Assembly (NCBI GenBank): GCA_020442475.1
Contig: JAGRKA010000002.1
Location: 1 to 64,000, forward strand
DNA length: 64,000 nucleotides
Origin: Alphaproteobacteria bacterium
Lineage (GTDB): Bacteria; Pseudomonadota; Alphaproteobacteria; Micavibrionales; Micavibrionaceae
Direction of reading: 5' to 3'
The position numbers and the translations under genes were made by a program. The notes beneath the pieces are model-generated. The model had not been told where the DNA came from, did not search any database, and saw only the letters and a program-made list of their open reading frames with translations. Positions 16,430-38,930 of this stretch are shown in pieces. Each line of letters begins with the position of its first letter. Position 1 is the stretch's first letter.

Positions 16430-17533
16430 ATGGGTTTTAATTGCGGAATTGTTGGTTTGCCGAATGTCGGAAAATCAACCTTGTTTAACGCACTGACGGC
16501 TACTGCAGCGGCGCAAGCAGCAAATTTTCCCTTTTGTACGATTGAGCCGAATGTCGGGCGGGTGGCTGTTCCTGATGCACGGCTTGACCAGATCTCCAAA
16601 ATTGCAAGCTCTGCGAATATCGTTCCTACGCAGCTTGAGTTCGTGGATATCGCAGGTTTGGTTAAGGGAGCCAGTAAGGGGGAGGGGTTGGGCAATCAGT
16701 TCCTCAGCAATATCCGCGAAACGGATGCGATCATCCATGTGCTGCGCTGTTTCGAAGATTCGGATATTACTCACGTTGAGGGCAGTGTTGATCCTTTGCG
16801 TGATGCGGAAACGATTGAAACAGAATTGATGCTGGCGGATCTTGAGAGCGTGAGCAAGCAGGTTGCCAATATCGAACGCAAGGCCAAGGGTGCGGATAAA
16901 GAGGCAAAAGCGCAGCATGAATATATGTTGCGTTTGCGCTCTGCGTTAGAAGGCGGCAATACCGCACGGACAGTATCTGCCGATAATGAGGATGAAATGC
17001 GCTGGGCCAAACATGCCGCACTTTTGACTTCAAAGCCTGTCCTTTATGTATGCAATGTCTCGGAGGAAGATGCTGCGCAAGGAAATGATTTTACCCGCAG
17101 CGTAGAAAAGATGGCTGCACAGCAAAACGCGCAAATGGTCGTGATTTGTGCAGCTATAGAATCTGAGATTTCTCAGCTTGATAGTGTAGAGGAGCGTAAG
17201 GAGTTTCTGGAGGCTGCCGGGCTGGAGGAGGCCGGGTTGGATAGGATCATCCGTGCGGGATATACGCTTTTGGGGCTGCAAACTTATTTCACAGCCGGGC
17301 CTAAAGAGGCACGAGCATGGACCATTCCTGTCGGCGCAACGGCGCCCGAGGCGGCAGGCGTTATTCACACAGATTTCCAGAAGGGGTTTATCAAGGCCGA
17401 GGTGATTTCTTTCGCAGATTTTGTTGCGCTTGGCGGTGAGCAGGGTGCAAAAGAATCCGGAAAAATGCGTCAGGAAGGCAAGTCCTATATCGTCGCGGAT
17501 GGTGATGTCATTCTTTTCCGGTTTAATGTCTAA
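16430..17533 (+). CDS. ychF: Redox-sensitive ribosome-associated ATPase YchF
   Basis: A 367-aa Obg-family protein that binds ATP rather than GTP and associates with ribosomes. The P-loop is GLPNVGKSTLFNAL near residue 8. The switch II region reads DIAGLVKGASKGEGLGNQFL. The NKxD position is the atypical CNVSEED, which is characteristic of YchF. The C-terminal TGS-like domain ends with GKSYIVADGDVILFRFNV, the usual YchF ending. TAAGGAGAACTGG precedes the ATG. Confidence 0.97.
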   Translation: MGFNCGIVGLPNVGKSTLFNALTATAAAQAANFPFCTIEPNVGRVAVPDARLDQISKIASSANIVPTQLEFVDIAGLVKGASKGEGLGNQFLSNIRETDAIIHVLRCFEDSDITHVEGSVDPLRDAETIETELMLADLESVSKQVANIERKAKGADKEAKAQHEYMLRLRSALEGGNTARTVSADNEDEMRWAKHAALLTSKPVLYVCNVSEEDAAQGNDFTRSVEKMAAQQNAQMVVICAAIESEISQLDSVEERKEFLEAAGLEEAGLDRIIRAGYTLLGLQTYFTAGPKEARAWTIPVGATAPEAAGVIHTDFQKGFIKAEVISFADFVALGGEQGAKESGKMRQEGKSYIVADGDVILFRFNV

Positions 17534-17551: not shown

Positions 17552-20500
17552 TTACGTTCCCGGTGCGGTGGCGGGGGTGGCACTTGCTGCGCGGGCGACT
17601 TGAATCTGCATATCTTCCTGCTGACGGATATACAGGTCGCGGCGTTCTCCATATGAGCCGTGCCGGTAGCTTTCCAGTTCGTTAAAACGGACGATATCGT
17701 AATCCTTATAAGCCTCAAGCTCGGATTCGAGTTTATAGAGAAGCTCCGGTCTGCCAGCCAGTTTCTCCCGGACATCGTCGAGCTTCTGAGTGTAATCATG
17801 GTCCCGGCCATCACCCAGAAGGCCGTCATATTCTTTTTCAAGGGACGCCCAGTTCACACGCATATAGGCCCAGAGGGGTAAATCTTTGGGCTGCCCATAG
17901 AGCGTATTCCACTCCGGTGCGCGGTAATTTGCATGGCGACCCATATAGGATTCGTAATAATTCATGACGGCGTCGTGGATATTCGTGTTTTTATCATCAT
18001 GCAATATTGACCCGGCCATTAATTTACCGGTCAGTTCACGCCTGTCGAAATCTTGCAATCTTTTGCCGTTATCGTCATAGCCGCTGACGAGGGCTTCGCG
18101 GCTGATCCCAAGAATATCTTTAGCCTGATCGTCCGTCATTCTGTTGACCAGAAAATCAAGCGGCGGGAGCGTGTTGCTGTTGGCGAGATAAGCGATTTTT
18201 TGCCAGACAGCATGATCGTCGATTGCCGGTTTTTCGAGCGTTTCAAATACAAGGCGCTGGTCTTCCAGATTTTGCATGAAATGGATCGTTTTACCATCAG
18301 AATTTTTATACAGCCCCATCATGGCTTCGGATATTTTGTTGATTGGGATGCCCAGTTCTGCTGCGCGATCTTCCATTTTGTTGCGCACATATTGCGCAAC
18401 ATCGGCTTTGCTCATGGGCTTATTTTTGTATTTTTCCGGCACGTTCCCTTCGCCGTAAACCAGCCGTGGATCTACTGCGCCGCGCATGCGCAAGATAGCG
18501 TAGGCATCTTTGTGCGCCAGCAGGCCGATTTCAACATTAAGAGAGTTTCTGAATTTTTTGTGCTGGTCCGGATCGTAATCCTTGCCGGTAAACATGAGAT
18601 CAAGAAGACCATAAACGGATTTATATTGCTCTATATATTCCGGAGAAATTTCATTTCCTGAGGCGGAGGACTGATAGAAATTTTCTAAATTCCACAGAGC
18701 AATAATATGGGAGTCGAAATCGCTATCATCGCCGTATCCGGATTTAAGTTTTCTGTATAGCTCGCCTTGCTTAAACTCCTCAATGCTTTTGCTGCGGAGT
18801 TTTTGCTGCAGTTCATCTGCAATATCCGGGTGCCCCGATCTTTGTATGATAGCTTGTGTCAGGCGTACGCGTTCTGCCTCTTTGTCCGCAGCGGGGGTGA
18901 CGTGTTTGTCCCCGTAAGCATCCATCATAGCCAGAATGGCCCCGTGGGGATTTTGTGCCTGTGCAAAAAGGCTTTCTTTATCTTTCAGATCCGCAACGCG
19001 GTTTGCACGTTTAATTTCACCATTTTGTTTTTTGCTGACTTCATAAATATGCCCGTAATCATCTTTGTTTGGGTCCAGGGCGATCTCATAAGTTTTAACA
19101 TTTTGCCCACTACCTATAATAAGGTGTCGCAGCATATTGTCGTTTGGCCCTGCGCTACTCCTTTCTGAGCTTGCATAACGTTCAAAAGTATCCTCAATAA
19201 AATCGGCAACTTTTTGCTGCGTATTCAGGTCGTAAATCACATCATTGAGCGTCGATCCATGATCTCCGAAACTATATTGTGTGCGCAAAATTTTTGCAGC
19301 AAAAGGGATCGGGTATAGCGCGGCAGCTTGTAGAGCTAAAGAGGATAGGGCTGTATCATCGTCCGGCAGGATAGCTGTCGGCGTTTCGTCTTCTGCCGCT
19401 GCCATATGTACGCGTTCTGTCCCGGTGTCTGTAGTCAGTGTTTCTCCGTCTGCTTTACTCTGCGCGGATACATCAGGTTGTTCGACAAGGGCGTGCATTC
19501 TAAGTTTGAGCGCCTCCTCAATGTCTTTGCCGGTTTCAGGATATTTCGTTACATAGTTGTGCAGTTCCGTATCCAGCGCGATCCTTGCTTCAACTTGCTT
19601 GCGCCGTTCTTCCGGAAGAGAATCAAGGTTGTTTATCTCTTCCTCTTTTAACCCCAGCGTATTCGAGCTGATATAAATCTGGGCAAGGCTGTTTAAGAAA
19701 CCGTTTTCAAGCGGGTGATAAGGATTTACGGTGATATCAAAGCCCTGAGTATTTGGAAACGCGCCGCTTTCGGCGATGGCGTTCGTCAGGCTTTTGAGTT
19801 TGAACGTATCAATGTCCTGTATGGCAGGCACACGTTCATTCGGGAATTTGTGCTTCAACTCCATCCTGTCCCGAACGAGTGGAGGCAGTTTTTTCGTTAG
19901 ATCGGCCAGCCCGTCTCCGATATTTGGTAGATGTGTATTGTTCGGGATGATTTTGAAATAGGCATCGAGAAAATCCTTATTGTAAGGATCGTTGATATTC
20001 GGGTCCGACAGGTAATTGTATTTGTGCAGAAGCGCCGCCATGTCTTTTATGACATTCCCGACATCCGGACTGTCTAGCCCCATATTAACCTGAGTGGCGA
20101 GTTGCAAATTTTCAGATGAAAAACGTTTTTCAAAAGCTTCTTTGCTTTTGTTGAAATCAGCAATAGCAGCTTCCGTTTTCTCTTCAGCAGAATCTCCGGT
20201 GATCATATCAAGAAATTCAGCAACGGATTGATTGAGCGCTTCTAACGGCAGAAATTGGGGGATTAGTAAAACCGGAGAACTCCCAGAAAAAAGTCTAAAT
20301 TTATCAGCCAAAGTTGGTTCGCGTCCTGCGCCTGTAGCGACAATATTTTTTATAGTCTCTTCGTCTAATCTCTCCAGAGTATTCATAGTTAGTTTCAGGC
20401 GGGTTGCCAGAGCCGGGCTCCATTTGCCGTCAACCGGCAGCGGGGCACCGTCATCGCCGAGGGATTTGAGGGACAGTGCAATGAGTTCATTCTCTGAAAG

Positions 20501-20737
20501 CTTATTCAGCGAACGGGCAAGATTGCTTAAATAAAGCTTATTAGCCTTGTAAAAATCATCACCGGTTGTCGTATCAATGGCCAAAGGGATGGGCGTGGTT
20601 TTCAGGCCCTTTAAAATACCGGGGTCGTTAAAATCCACTTTAGCGCTCTTCAGGAGGCCTGAATTATTCAGAACCTTCTTATAGGCTTTCACAATTTCAG
20701 GGTCGAGAGCGCTGCTCTCAAGGGCAGAGTCCGCCAT
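17552..20737 (-). CDS. Very large protein of unknown function (1061 aa, no cysteine)
   Basis: I do not recognise this protein. The ATG at 20737 has GAGAGGG six bases upstream and is preferred over the GTG at 20743. It has no signal peptide, no convincing membrane helix and, by reading the whole translation, no cysteine. It looks mostly alpha-helical and charged. An early segment, GAPLPVDGKWSPALATRLKL near residue 100, resembles the VDGxxGPxT turn of peptidoglycan-binding repeats but is too weak to call. A polar stretch rich in T, D and E near residues 430-460 may be a linker. The C-terminus is an Ala/Thr/Pro tail (ARAASATPATAPGT). It is convergent with ychF and stands alone. Confidence 0.85.
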   Translation of the reverse strand: MADSALESSALDPEIVKAYKKVLNNSGLLKSAKVDFNDPGILKGLKTTPIPLAIDTTTGDDFYKANKLYLSNLARSLNKLSENELIALSLKSLGDDGAPLPVDGKWSPALATRLKLTMNTLERLDEETIKNIVATGAGREPTLADKFRLFSGSSPVLLIPQFLPLEALNQSVAEFLDMITGDSAEEKTEAAIADFNKSKEAFEKRFSSENLQLATQVNMGLDSPDVGNVIKDMAALLHKYNYLSDPNINDPYNKDFLDAYFKIIPNNTHLPNIGDGLADLTKKLPPLVRDRMELKHKFPNERVPAIQDIDTFKLKSLTNAIAESGAFPNTQGFDITVNPYHPLENGFLNSLAQIYISSNTLGLKEEEINNLDSLPEERRKQVEARIALDTELHNYVTKYPETGKDIEEALKLRMHALVEQPDVSAQSKADGETLTTDTGTERVHMAAAEDETPTAILPDDDTALSSLALQAAALYPIPFAAKILRTQYSFGDHGSTLNDVIYDLNTQQKVADFIEDTFERYASSERSSAGPNDNMLRHLIIGSGQNVKTYEIALDPNKDDYGHIYEVSKKQNGEIKRANRVADLKDKESLFAQAQNPHGAILAMMDAYGDKHVTPAADKEAERVRLTQAIIQRSGHPDIADELQQKLRSKSIEEFKQGELYRKLKSGYGDDSDFDSHIIALWNLENFYQSSASGNEISPEYIEQYKSVYGLLDLMFTGKDYDPDQHKKFRNSLNVEIGLLAHKDAYAILRMRGAVDPRLVYGEGNVPEKYKNKPMSKADVAQYVRNKMEDRAAELGIPINKISEAMMGLYKNSDGKTIHFMQNLEDQRLVFETLEKPAIDDHAVWQKIAYLANSNTLPPLDFLVNRMTDDQAKDILGISREALVSGYDDNGKRLQDFDRRELTGKLMAGSILHDDKNTNIHDAVMNYYESYMGRHANYRAPEWNTLYGQPKDLPLWAYMRVNWASLEKEYDGLLGDGRDHDYTQKLDDVREKLAGRPELLYKLESELEAYKDYDIVRFNELESYRHGSYGERRDLYIRQQEDMQIQVARAASATPATAPGT

Positions 20738-20889
20738 AAACACCCTCTCTATACACCATCGCCGTTTATCCGTTTTTTATAGTTCTAATTCTTATTATTG
20801 AGGCCAGCATACAGGACCGGCTGGAAAAAGTCAAATTTTCCAGTTTTTACAGAGCGTTAACGATTTGTTAAGAATTGGTGCCGTTTACC

Positions 20890-21804
20890 CTAGGCGCCGT
20901 TCGCTCTTGCGGCCTTCGCAGTGGAGGGCGCCCGTCCGTGGACGAGATCCTCATAATCGCTGCGGATTGTCCGCGTGATCGGGCCGACTTCGTAGGTTTT
21001 GTCGTCGATTTTACCGACAGCCGTAATCTCGGCAGCCGTCCCGGTGAGGAAGATTTCTTCAAAGGATTCAAGCTCTTCCGGCTTTATACGTCGCTCTTCA
21101 AGCGGGATTCCGTTGGCCTTGGCCAGATCCATCGCTGTACGGCGGGTGATCCCGTTCAGGAAGCGGTCCGCGATGGGGGTGATGAGCTTTCCGTCTTTAA
21201 CGGCGAAGAGATTTGCGCCCGTCGATTCGGCGACATACCCCTCATGGTCCAGCATAAGGGCATCGGTATAGCCGTCTTGTTTGACTTCGTATTTCGCTAT
21301 GCAGCTTAAATTATACAAGGATGCACTTTTGCTTTGAGTCGGGGCCGTATCCGGTGCAGGTTTGCGCCAGCGCGAGGTTTTAAGCGATATGCCCTTTTCA
21401 CGGACGGCCGGGTCGAAATAACTGCCCCAATCCCAAGCTGCGACAGCCATATGGGTTTGTGTGCCGGCCGTATCAATGCCCATCTGTTCGCTGCCACGCC
21501 AAGCAGCGGCGCGGATATATGCATTTTCAAGCTTATTAACCTTCAGGACCTCATATTTGATCTCTTCGATCTGGTCGGCCGTGTAATGCATCTCCATATG
21601 GATGATGTCCGCAGAACGGAGTAGGCGCTCGGAATGTGCCAGCGATTTGAAGATTTTTCCGCTATAGGCGCGCTCACCTTCAAAGACTTGCGTACCGTAA
21701 TGGAGCGCATGGGTCAGGAAGTGAACCCTGGCTTCGCGCCAAGGGAGCATTTGGCCATCCATCCAGATAAAGCCGTTGCGGTCGTCAAAGGGTATACCAG
21801 CCAT
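20890..21804 (-). CDS. ilvE: Branched-chain amino acid aminotransferase
   Basis: A 304-aa PLP-dependent class IV aminotransferase that forms leucine, isoleucine and valine from their keto acids. The opening FIWMDGQMLPWREARVHFLT, then HALHYGTQVFEG, is characteristic. The PLP lysine is in SKSASLYNLSCIAK. The later segment VAESTGANLFAVKDGKLITP and FLTGTAAEITAVG complete the fold-type IV pattern. It stands alone on the minus strand between the 1061-aa gene and the two-component pair. It works with ilvD at 53.7 kb. Confidence 0.95.
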   Translation of the reverse strand: MAGIPFDDRNGFIWMDGQMLPWREARVHFLTHALHYGTQVFEGERAYSGKIFKSLAHSERLLRSADIIHMEMHYTADQIEEIKYEVLKVNKLENAYIRAAAWRGSEQMGIDTAGTQTHMAVAAWDWGSYFDPAVREKGISLKTSRWRKPAPDTAPTQSKSASLYNLSCIAKYEVKQDGYTDALMLDHEGYVAESTGANLFAVKDGKLITPIADRFLNGITRRTAMDLAKANGIPLEERRIKPEELESFEEIFLTGTAAEITAVGKIDDKTYEVGPITRTIRSDYEDLVHGRAPSTAKAARANGA

Positions 21805-36060: not shown

Positions 36061-36200
36061 TATTTAGGATTTTCTTATCCACAGGCAAGCCTTCCAGCCC
36101 TATCCAGCGATTTTAATTTAGAGTGAGCCGTTGTAGGCTTTGGCAAAGGTTTATCTGGAAGAATCGCCTTTCTTCCCACCTATGTTCGGAGCCCTCTATC

Positions 36201-38930
36201 ATGCGTATTCGCCCCCTTCTTTTATCGTCTGCCGCGGCTATCGCGGTTTTATTAGGCTCGACTTTCGCGATACCCGGCGCTTTAGCACAGAAAGGAGGCA
36301 TATTATCCCCGTCTTCTCAGTGGGTTGTTACGAAAGCGGGAGATCAACCGGATAGTGCAGGCACATATTGTGCTCTGGCTAAGAGATTTCAGTCGGGCGC
36401 CGTATTAACCGTTGCGCGTAATCAAGCCGGAGAGAGCTCTTTGGCTGTGAACTTTCATTCCCGGCAGTTTGATGTAAACCGTTCTATCCCTGTTACGCTG
36501 GACCCCGGCGTGGGGCAGCAGCGGGATTATGAAATTGTTCCCGCGTCAGATAAGGCGCTTGTGGTCAGGATGGGGGTGGATTCGACTTTTTTTGATGCGC
36601 TTGAGAAAACCGGATATTTGCGGGCGGAAATTGAAGGGCGCTCTTATAATTTTGATCTGGCGGATATTGAGCGTGGGCAGGGGCAGCTTGCGGCCTGTGT
36701 CGCTAACCTCGTAACACCGGCAGCCGGTGAGGAGGTGGACGGTTCCGGCGACGCATACCGCGATGAAATTAATGCACTCCGGCAACAAGTCGAGGCGTTA
36801 AAGCGGCAAAATGACGATTTGAGGCAAGCTGGGCAGGGAGATATCGCCTCTTTTTCTTCTGATCCTGAGCAGGAGAGGGTATTGGAAGGGCTCAAAGCGG
36901 AGAATGTACGCTTGAGAGAGGCCGTACAGGATTATAACGGCGAGAAGGCGCATGGCCGGGAGCAGATAGCTTCATTAGAGGCACGCATTCAGGCGCTTGA
37001 GGCTGAAAATAAGATTTTGTCGGGTAATGTCGAGCAGAATCGGGCGGAGGCGCAGTCGCATTTCGAAGCAGAAATGCGGCGTTATCAAGATGAAAATGCT
37101 GACCTTAAGGCTGAGCTGAATAAGGTGAAAGCGCTGTCGCAGGCTGCTGAGCTTCAATTGACGGCGATACAGGCTGAAACTTCGCAGGATACCGGGGCGG
37201 CTCTGAAGGCCTTACAGGCCGAAAAAGAGCAACTTACGCTCGCGCTTGCTGAAGCGAACCATGCGTTGGAGTCTGCACAGGCAGATAGGGAGCAGGCTTT
37301 GGAAAAGGCGGCGACTGCCGTGGACAAAACAGCATCTTTGGAGGAATCTACAGCGCAGATTGAGGCTGCGCGGCTTGAGGCTGAACAAATCAGGGCTGAG
37401 CGCTTAAAGGCTGACGAGGCGCTACAAGCAGCCTCCCTGCGGGTTACGGCTCTGGAAGAAGATTTAGGGCGCATGCAGCAGGAGAATAAGAAACTCATTG
37501 CCCAAATAGCAGCGCTGGAGGCTGATAAGGCACAGGCTTCAGCCGGGCAAGCAGAGGAGGTGGCTGCGCTGAGAGCGGATAATAAACGCCTTCAGGCCGA
37601 TATAGCAGAGAAATTGCTGGCTTTTGAGCAGGAGAGAGGTGAGCATGAGATTGCGCTGACGGCTTTGAGGCAGGATAATGAAACATTACAAGAGGATAAC
37701 AAAAGGCTGCGCACCGCCTTGGCTGAACAAGAAATAGCCTCGCAGCAGGCCCTTAACCGCTTAGAGGCTAGTGCCGCAGAGGGGGCGGGTGAGGAGGCTG
37801 GATTAACACACGCTGAGGCCGAGATATTACGCGAAGAAAACACACGCTTGAAGGCGGACATGGAGGCGCTGGAAGCGCGTTTACAAAGTGCTGATCTTGA
37901 AAAGCAAAAAGAGATGCAGGATCTTGCCCGGCAATATATCCGTGTGAAGCGCCTGTATGAAGATAGCCTTGCTCGTCAGGCCGCGCCGACGGTAGAGAGT
38001 ATGAACAATAATGAAGCTGAGGGCGGCGAAATTCTTAAAGCTCAAAAAGTTTCCGCAGTCGTTTCAACCCTATCTGGGGAACCTGTCGCCGTTTCTTCGC
38101 AGCCTGTGCCGGAGGAGAGCACGGTTGAAATCAAAGTTGCAGACAGTAGTGATATCGCTCTTACGGAGGCGCAGCGCTTTGAAGAAGGTATGAAAGTGCA
38201 CAGAGTCGAGGAGCCCATGCCGATTCTTCCAGAGAAGGTAGAGGAGGGCACCTCAGGTGATCAATCTGTAGCGCATGAACAAGATTTAGGCGCTCAGGAG
38301 AAGGGCCGTGCAGCCCCGTCCGCCTATGCGATTCTACCGGAAGGACTTGTGCCACTGGGGGAACCGGAAAATACTTCAACTGCCGTTGTGGAAGAAAGAC
38401 CCGAGAGTTTTCCATTTGACCGCCGTGACAGCGCCGTAGATCATCATCCTTTATCGTCTTCTGCGGCGGAAGGGGGGCTTTACAGGCCATCCTTTGCTTT
38501 GGAAGAGTTGCTCGATCAGGCTCAATTGGTGCGATCTGCACATCTGGATGTCGTTCAGGCTGCGTCCGGACCGGATATGCTGGCCTATCAGTGGAAAGAG
38601 GACAAAGTTTTTGCTTCGGCGGAACAAAAACCGTTGCCGGATAGTGCAGCGTTTGATCATTTTGTTATGGATTATCTTCAGCGGACACAAGCGCGCTGCC
38701 CTTCCGCAAATTTTGCTATCCTTCCTGATGATACTGCGCAGTCGGGGGGCATGCGGATTGATAGCTATGAGGTAGCATGTGTTGGCGATGGCGTTTCTTC
38801 ATCTGCATCGTTACTGTTCTTCAACAAGGACGGAACCTTTACAGCTATGGCGCATGAGGCCCCGACTGAAAATATGGAAGAGGCTATGACCTTGCGTGAT
38901 CGTGTATTTAAAGCGATCACAGAATCTTAA
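36201..38930 (+). CDS. Exported long coiled-coil protein of unknown function (909 aa)
   Basis: I do not recognise the family. The ATG at 36201 begins a signal peptide (cleavage near ALA, residue 29). An N-terminal domain (about 30-170) has cysteines C57 and C166. A coiled coil of roughly 430 residues (about 195-625) follows, with regular Leu/Asn heptads such as LRADNKRLQADI and LREENTRLKADM. A disordered acidic linker (about 635-770) leads to a C-terminal domain with C833 and C860. Cysteine pairs at each end would suit disulfide bonds in the periplasm. An upstream in-frame ATG at 36123 would add 26 residues ahead of the signal peptide and is unlikely. Confidence 0.88.
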   Translation: MRIRPLLLSSAAAIAVLLGSTFAIPGALAQKGGILSPSSQWVVTKAGDQPDSAGTYCALAKRFQSGAVLTVARNQAGESSLAVNFHSRQFDVNRSIPVTLDPGVGQQRDYEIVPASDKALVVRMGVDSTFFDALEKTGYLRAEIEGRSYNFDLADIERGQGQLAACVANLVTPAAGEEVDGSGDAYRDEINALRQQVEALKRQNDDLRQAGQGDIASFSSDPEQERVLEGLKAENVRLREAVQDYNGEKAHGREQIASLEARIQALEAENKILSGNVEQNRAEAQSHFEAEMRRYQDENADLKAELNKVKALSQAAELQLTAIQAETSQDTGAALKALQAEKEQLTLALAEANHALESAQADREQALEKAATAVDKTASLEESTAQIEAARLEAEQIRAERLKADEALQAASLRVTALEEDLGRMQQENKKLIAQIAALEADKAQASAGQAEEVAALRADNKRLQADIAEKLLAFEQERGEHEIALTALRQDNETLQEDNKRLRTALAEQEIASQQALNRLEASAAEGAGEEAGLTHAEAEILREENTRLKADMEALEARLQSADLEKQKEMQDLARQYIRVKRLYEDSLARQAAPTVESMNNNEAEGGEILKAQKVSAVVSTLSGEPVAVSSQPVPEESTVEIKVADSSDIALTEAQRFEEGMKVHRVEEPMPILPEKVEEGTSGDQSVAHEQDLGAQEKGRAAPSAYAILPEGLVPLGEPENTSTAVVEERPESFPFDRRDSAVDHHPLSSSAAEGGLYRPSFALEELLDQAQLVRSAHLDVVQAASGPDMLAYQWKEDKVFASAEQKPLPDSAAFDHFVMDYLQRTQARCPSANFAILPDDTAQSGGMRIDSYEVACVGDGVSSSASLLFFNKDGTFTAMAHEAPTENMEEAMTLRDRVFKAITES

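Follow-up and report, generated by a model that had tools for sequence, protein, structure and literature searches.

To our knowledge, the proteins with which epibiotic predators among the Micavibrio-type bacteria attach to other cells and penetrate their walls are hardly known, RTX-type proteins apart. Micavibrio in culture preys epibiotically (PMC3189940), and RTX lipases and S-layer RTX proteins have been described as lacking cysteine (PMC3034196). Here we describe a gene, called gene X below, that lies in a 64,000-nucleotide stretch of a Micavibrionaceae genome (the window) and encodes a large protein that shares some features of these systems and lacks others.

Gene X and its family at the slot beside ychF

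The features of the locus are as follows.

17552 to 20737, minus strand: gene X, encoding a 1061-residue cysteine-free protein (open reading frame and translation; same-slot homologues in 26 genomes)
16430 to 17533, plus strand: ychF, the conserved convergent neighbor, 18 bp from gene X (synteny)
20890 to 21804, minus strand: branched-chain aminotransferase-type (ilvE-like) gene, the conserved upstream neighbor (synteny and relatives)
20806 to 20834, minus strand: promoter-like site of gene X, TTGACT-17-TATGCT (pattern scan; such sites are not rarer in shuffled sequence)
20821 to 20843, no strand assigned: palindrome CTGGAAAA-N7-TTTTCCAG around the -35 element of gene X (single copy in the window)

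The coding span of gene X runs from an ATG at 20737 to 17555, followed by a stop codon at 17552-17554, and AGAGAGGG, a good ribosome-binding sequence, lies 5 nt before the ATG. An in-frame GTG is also present upstream at 20743, and AGAGAGGG is placed for the ATG. These observations agree with an earlier note on this DNA, which had described an unbroken open reading frame of more than 3 kb with a good ribosome-binding site, alone between two housekeeping genes; the strand, which the note had left out, is the minus strand. Crude scans revealed neither a Sec nor a Tat signal and no transmembrane helix, in line with the note, which had seen no signal peptide and no clear membrane helix. The aminotransferase gene is on the same strand, 152 bp upstream. 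The sigma-70-like site lies 69-97 bp upstream of gene X, and shuffled sequence holds such sites no less often. The palindrome is perfect, unique in the window and found in 0 of 100 shuffles, and it is absent from the relatives' loci. Elsewhere in the window (36123-38930, plus strand), a 935-residue open reading frame that has no Pfam hit at E 1e-5 carries a signal-like hydrophobic stretch after an internal Met.

When X was compared with 57 relatives by BLAST, two matched besides X itself, over short stretches only, and a search of a genome contig collection with X as the query found no relative. A weak match in one relative (G010) adjoins ychF. The ychF region was collected from about 50 related genomes. 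In these, a large open reading frame facing ychF often fills the slot flanked by ychF and the aminotransferase gene, and these frames were joined into one family by all-against-all comparison and profiles. Homologues at the slot were found in 26 genomes of the Micavibrionaceae (24 by profile, and G011 and G025 through BLAST links), with lengths of 428-2046 residues; the genes in G084 and G086 run into the ends of their contigs, and the lengths given for them are lower bounds. The core of X matches the family profile at E 6e-61, a value to which X contributes as a row of that profile, and independent pairwise BLAST comparisons of X give E 4e-19 with the G006 protein and E 2e-15 with the G085 protein. 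X itself lies between ychF and the ilvE-type gene, and the examined members occupy the slot; on every contig that includes the aminotransferase gene, they come immediately after it. In G107 the neighborhood is rearranged such that the homologue follows the aminotransferase gene and does not face ychF, and in G004 the homologue and ychF are separated by a helicase gene.

The family profile matched 24 of 142 genomes of the order, all of them in the window's own family, and nothing elsewhere in the order. Among 385 genomes of the class it gave a single match outside the family (G385, E 0.003, 52 residues), which we treated as chance. Plasmid and phage searches and scans of viral contigs found no homologue of X. 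In a tree of four neighboring genes, the core-bearing members fall in one clade with at least one apparent loss, in G001, whose ychF and aminotransferase genes are separated by just 13 bp. As judged from synteny and profile matches, X is not an orphan: it is a member of one family at one fixed slot, so far unnamed, confined to the Micavibrionaceae and, by the gene tree, vertically inherited. The earlier note's statement that the protein has no recognizable family is thus true of the public libraries but not of its own taxonomic family.

Other occupants of the region were also seen. In a single-contig genome (G022, locus L031), an adenosine deaminase-like gene fills the slot instead of X. G007 and G085 hold a second cysteine-free protein of 471 and 477 residues, respectively (L004, 4123-5535, plus strand; L083, 6371-7801, minus strand), which lies between the X homologue and the aminotransferase gene and is unrelated to X by BLAST. 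A second family, of proteins of 1.2-1.9 thousand residues (for example L224, 10104-14948, plus strand), occurs in 16 genomes of genera g5, g6 and g29, the same genera that have the short, cysteine-tailed forms of X.

Repeat units, core domain and structure model

Four features were delimited within the protein.

20384 to 20581, minus strand: repeat unit, residues 53-118, which holds VDGKWSPALATRLKL (match to unit profile A6 at E 1e-19, not independent in that the X copy is a seed row)
19148 to 19315, minus strand: segment resembling the repeat unit, residues 475-530 (helix, YDLNT, helix; alignment A3, by eye)
18188 to 19075, minus strand: core domain of the whole family, about residues 555-850 (iterated profile search and alignments)
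17555 to 19330, minus strand: confidently folded C-terminal part, residues 470-1061 (AlphaFold2, mean pLDDT 82)

The earlier note had remarked that VDGKWSPALATRLKL faintly recalls peptidoglycan-binding repeats, a resemblance that is real as a repeat unit and weak as homology. The segment is part of a unit of about 64 residues with the pattern FLxxY ... Q..L ... VTGxWDxxTxxAL. Profile A6 was built from nine such units and used in six-frame searches of 104 genomes. Its non-seed matches include a G062 slot protein that this profile alone links to the family, a PG_binding_1 protein (PF01471, E 1e-10), a protein in G008 with SLT and PG_binding_1-like regions, and a 1615-residue protein in G108; the remaining three or four weak matches look like chance. 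In addition, the slot protein of G021 carries SLT and PG_binding_1 domains above the Pfam cut-offs. Direct comparison is weak: X has no match to PF01471 over the curated cut-off, a PGBD model made from members of the clade reaches X at E 4 (residues 100-112), and a profile comparison of the unit with PGBD gives a probability of 34%, where column-shuffled controls reach up to 6%. Given the non-seed matches and the G021 protein, we regard the unit as real and its kinship with PG_binding_1 as likely, if unproven, and X itself is not classed as a PG_binding_1 protein. The pattern at residues 475-530 also occurs in relatives and is missed by the unit profile. The G108 protein, with its PG_binding-like unit, belongs to the L224-type second family, and a 529-residue SLT-type protein encoded outside the ychF slot (L225, 8404-9990, plus strand) has two PG_binding-like units.

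The core domain bears the motif ISxAMxxGxFxPxxxDxxL, with D826 invariant. In an AlphaFold2 model computed from 22 sequences, residues 470-1061 form a predicted domain made up largely of helices, with one small sheet of four strands. The model is poor for the N-terminal half, with most of residues 29-114, in the repeat region where a three-helix PGBD fold would lie, at pLDDT values below 50. Scans of X and its relatives against Pfam, PHROG, NCBIfam and PADLOC produced nothing credible, and Foldseek searches with the full and domain models of X gave no match at E <= 0.001. VIA matches reached a best Z of 6.9 over local helical pieces of 70-80 residues, and those such as a sigma factor or TRPV1 were taken as common helix packing. 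A PDB sequence match, 23wm_A (PP507), at E 0.0023 consisted of weak helical pieces with no domain significant. The fold search for an effector, phage or wall-binding fold that the earlier note had proposed thus returned no PDB match for residues 470-1061; nor did it, or the homologue searches, turn up a common enzyme fold or a close homologue known to act inside the cell. The lack of a convincing match among solved and viral structures does not by itself prove a new fold.

Cysteine content, evolutionary rate and rival explanations

The absence of cysteine from the translation, also recorded in the earlier note, holds for all 1061 residues of X and has a P of ~2e-4 at the window's cysteine frequency of 0.81%. 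Taken alone it is unremarkable, a weak oddity, since other long cysteine-free open reading frames exist in the window (an AsmA-like protein of 1143 residues) and in related loci (5 of 63 other long frames). At the level of the family, the depletion is extreme: the 12 long forms have 5 cysteines in 18,338 residues versus 149 expected, or 3% of expectation. Eight slot proteins of other types have 0 in 5,348 residues versus about 43 expected. The short forms, from genera g5, g6 and g29, do contain cysteine, with 63 of 75 residues falling in the last 150 amino acids, mostly paired at a spacing of 8-10 residues in repeats such as C[YF]ADDxxGPC. Such paired tails are, indirectly, what would be expected of proteins that work in an oxidizing place.

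The rate of change was estimated from the closest pair of genomes (G100 and G101), for which the dN/dS of X is 0.088 and its dN exceeds the ychF value about 10-fold and that of a neighboring histidine kinase about 2-fold. These values indicate a real gene under purifying selection that is nonetheless evolving fast.

Scaffold proteins of the cytoplasm, too, can lose cysteine and evolve fast, which counts against reading these properties as signs of export. The main rival explanation is that X is a scaffold or structural protein of the cytoplasm, in which both properties would simply follow from a helical architecture that is elongated and under weak constraint. The mostly helical model, the housekeeping neighbors and the lack of a signal peptide, a transmembrane helix and an exporter neighbor would all suit such a protein. 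However, depletion to 3% of expectation in the long forms and spaced cysteine pairs in the tails of the short forms are difficult to account for if the protein stays in a reducing cytosol, and the SLT and PG_binding_1 domains of the G021 slot protein also speak against it. On balance we find a scaffold role somewhat doubtful.

Fast divergence and great length variation would also fit an effector that is passed into prey or competing bacteria and has its activity in the variable parts, and the longest forms have a glycine-zipper-like hydrophobic segment (about residue 1566 of the G007 protein) that, like the epibiotic predation of cultured Micavibrio (PMC3189940), would fit this explanation. 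We nevertheless judge it distinctly unlikely: the scans matched no family of toxins, nucleases, proteases or pore-formers, the gene is single copy in a slot without an immunity-like partner gene, and it is the middle core that is most conserved and not a swappable C-terminal toxin. That X is a phage-derived injection protein (ejectosome or tape-measure) domesticated in the chromosome seems very improbable, given that X has no PHROG match or match in phage or viral collections, no phage neighbors were seen and inheritance appears vertical, against which stand its large, helical, cysteine-poor character, the SLT domain of one slot protein and the presence of phage ejectosome and tape-measure proteins among statistically empty Foldseek rows.

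Proposed role and comparison with known systems

We infer export, wall contact and a role at the surface, and tentatively propose, with a probability of roughly 0.45, that X is a Sec-independent, modular protein whose place of action is the wall or surface and not the cytoplasm. The suggestion of a non-Sec route was made in the earlier note and is partly supported: the family-wide cysteine depletion, the paired tail cysteines, the PG_binding_1-like units and the G021 protein all favor it indirectly, whereas the absence of RTX repeats, of an adjacent exporter gene and of a demonstrable export signal does not. Three HlyD-type exporter adaptors are encoded on other contigs of this genome (C48, C87 and C111), so a candidate export route exists; since nearly every genome of the family has one or more, their presence does not discriminate. 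A motif, NAxDxTG, stands 25-36 residues from the end of 12 relatives, as found with a regular expression made after seeing the data, and is absent from X. Although it looks strong by that expression, we do not put it forward as a C-terminal sorting motif, since an unbiased Gibbs search of 26 tails scored no better than searches of shuffled ones.

X is modular: its N-terminal half is variable and carries PG_binding_1-like units, its core is conserved and largely helical, and its tail is polar; the long relatives have a variable C-terminal extension as well. According to the proposal, X would be synthesized as a cytoplasmic protein lacking a Sec signal and cross the envelope through a non-Sec exporter, for which the HlyD-type systems of the cell are possible candidates. 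Its repeat units would then touch peptidoglycan and its core would hold partner proteins, at the wall or on the cell surface, and the rapid change in length and sequence may reflect changing partners, for example prey surfaces. It is a bolder and rather unlikely extension that this giant, cysteine-free, Sec-independent, wall-facing family mediates Micavibrio-type cell contact, diversifies with the partner and has a core fold absent from the PDB. With its fixed place, rebuilt length (428-2046 residues) and sequence, cysteine purged from the long forms and wall-binding-like units, the family is a good candidate for a Micavibrio-type surface or delivery protein. X is also a worked example of an apparent orphan that synteny resolves where similarity has nearly vanished.

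RTX and other type I-secreted proteins, including S-layer RTX proteins, resemble X in being large, acidic and cysteine-free without a Sec signal. They differ in that X has no GGxGxD repeats, no nearby exporter genes (the adjacent genes being housekeeping genes) and no demonstrated C-terminal signal. Since RTX repeats are absent, X should not be called an RTX protein or a type I substrate, and a type I route specifically for X is not supported. The slot proteins of G035, G060, G062, G030 and G026 share with X its genomic slot and lack of cysteine, and the first three also a VTGxWDxxT unit, but they are 533-699 residues long and have no detectable core domain. Compared with PG_binding_1 domains, the units of X are longer (about 64 residues), have an extra FLxxY start and lack a PF01471 match, but their end, [VI]TGxWDxxTxxAL, resembles the PGBD motif DGxxGxxTxxA, the unit profile recovers PF01471 proteins blind, and the slot protein of G021 truly belongs to PG_binding_1. 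Finally, SLT proteins with PG_binding domains differ from X, which has no SLT domain, but two of them (L225, 8404-9990, plus strand; L027, 3445-5238, minus strand) are like X in having a PG_binding-like unit and no evident Sec signal, and the L027 protein shares its slot with X.
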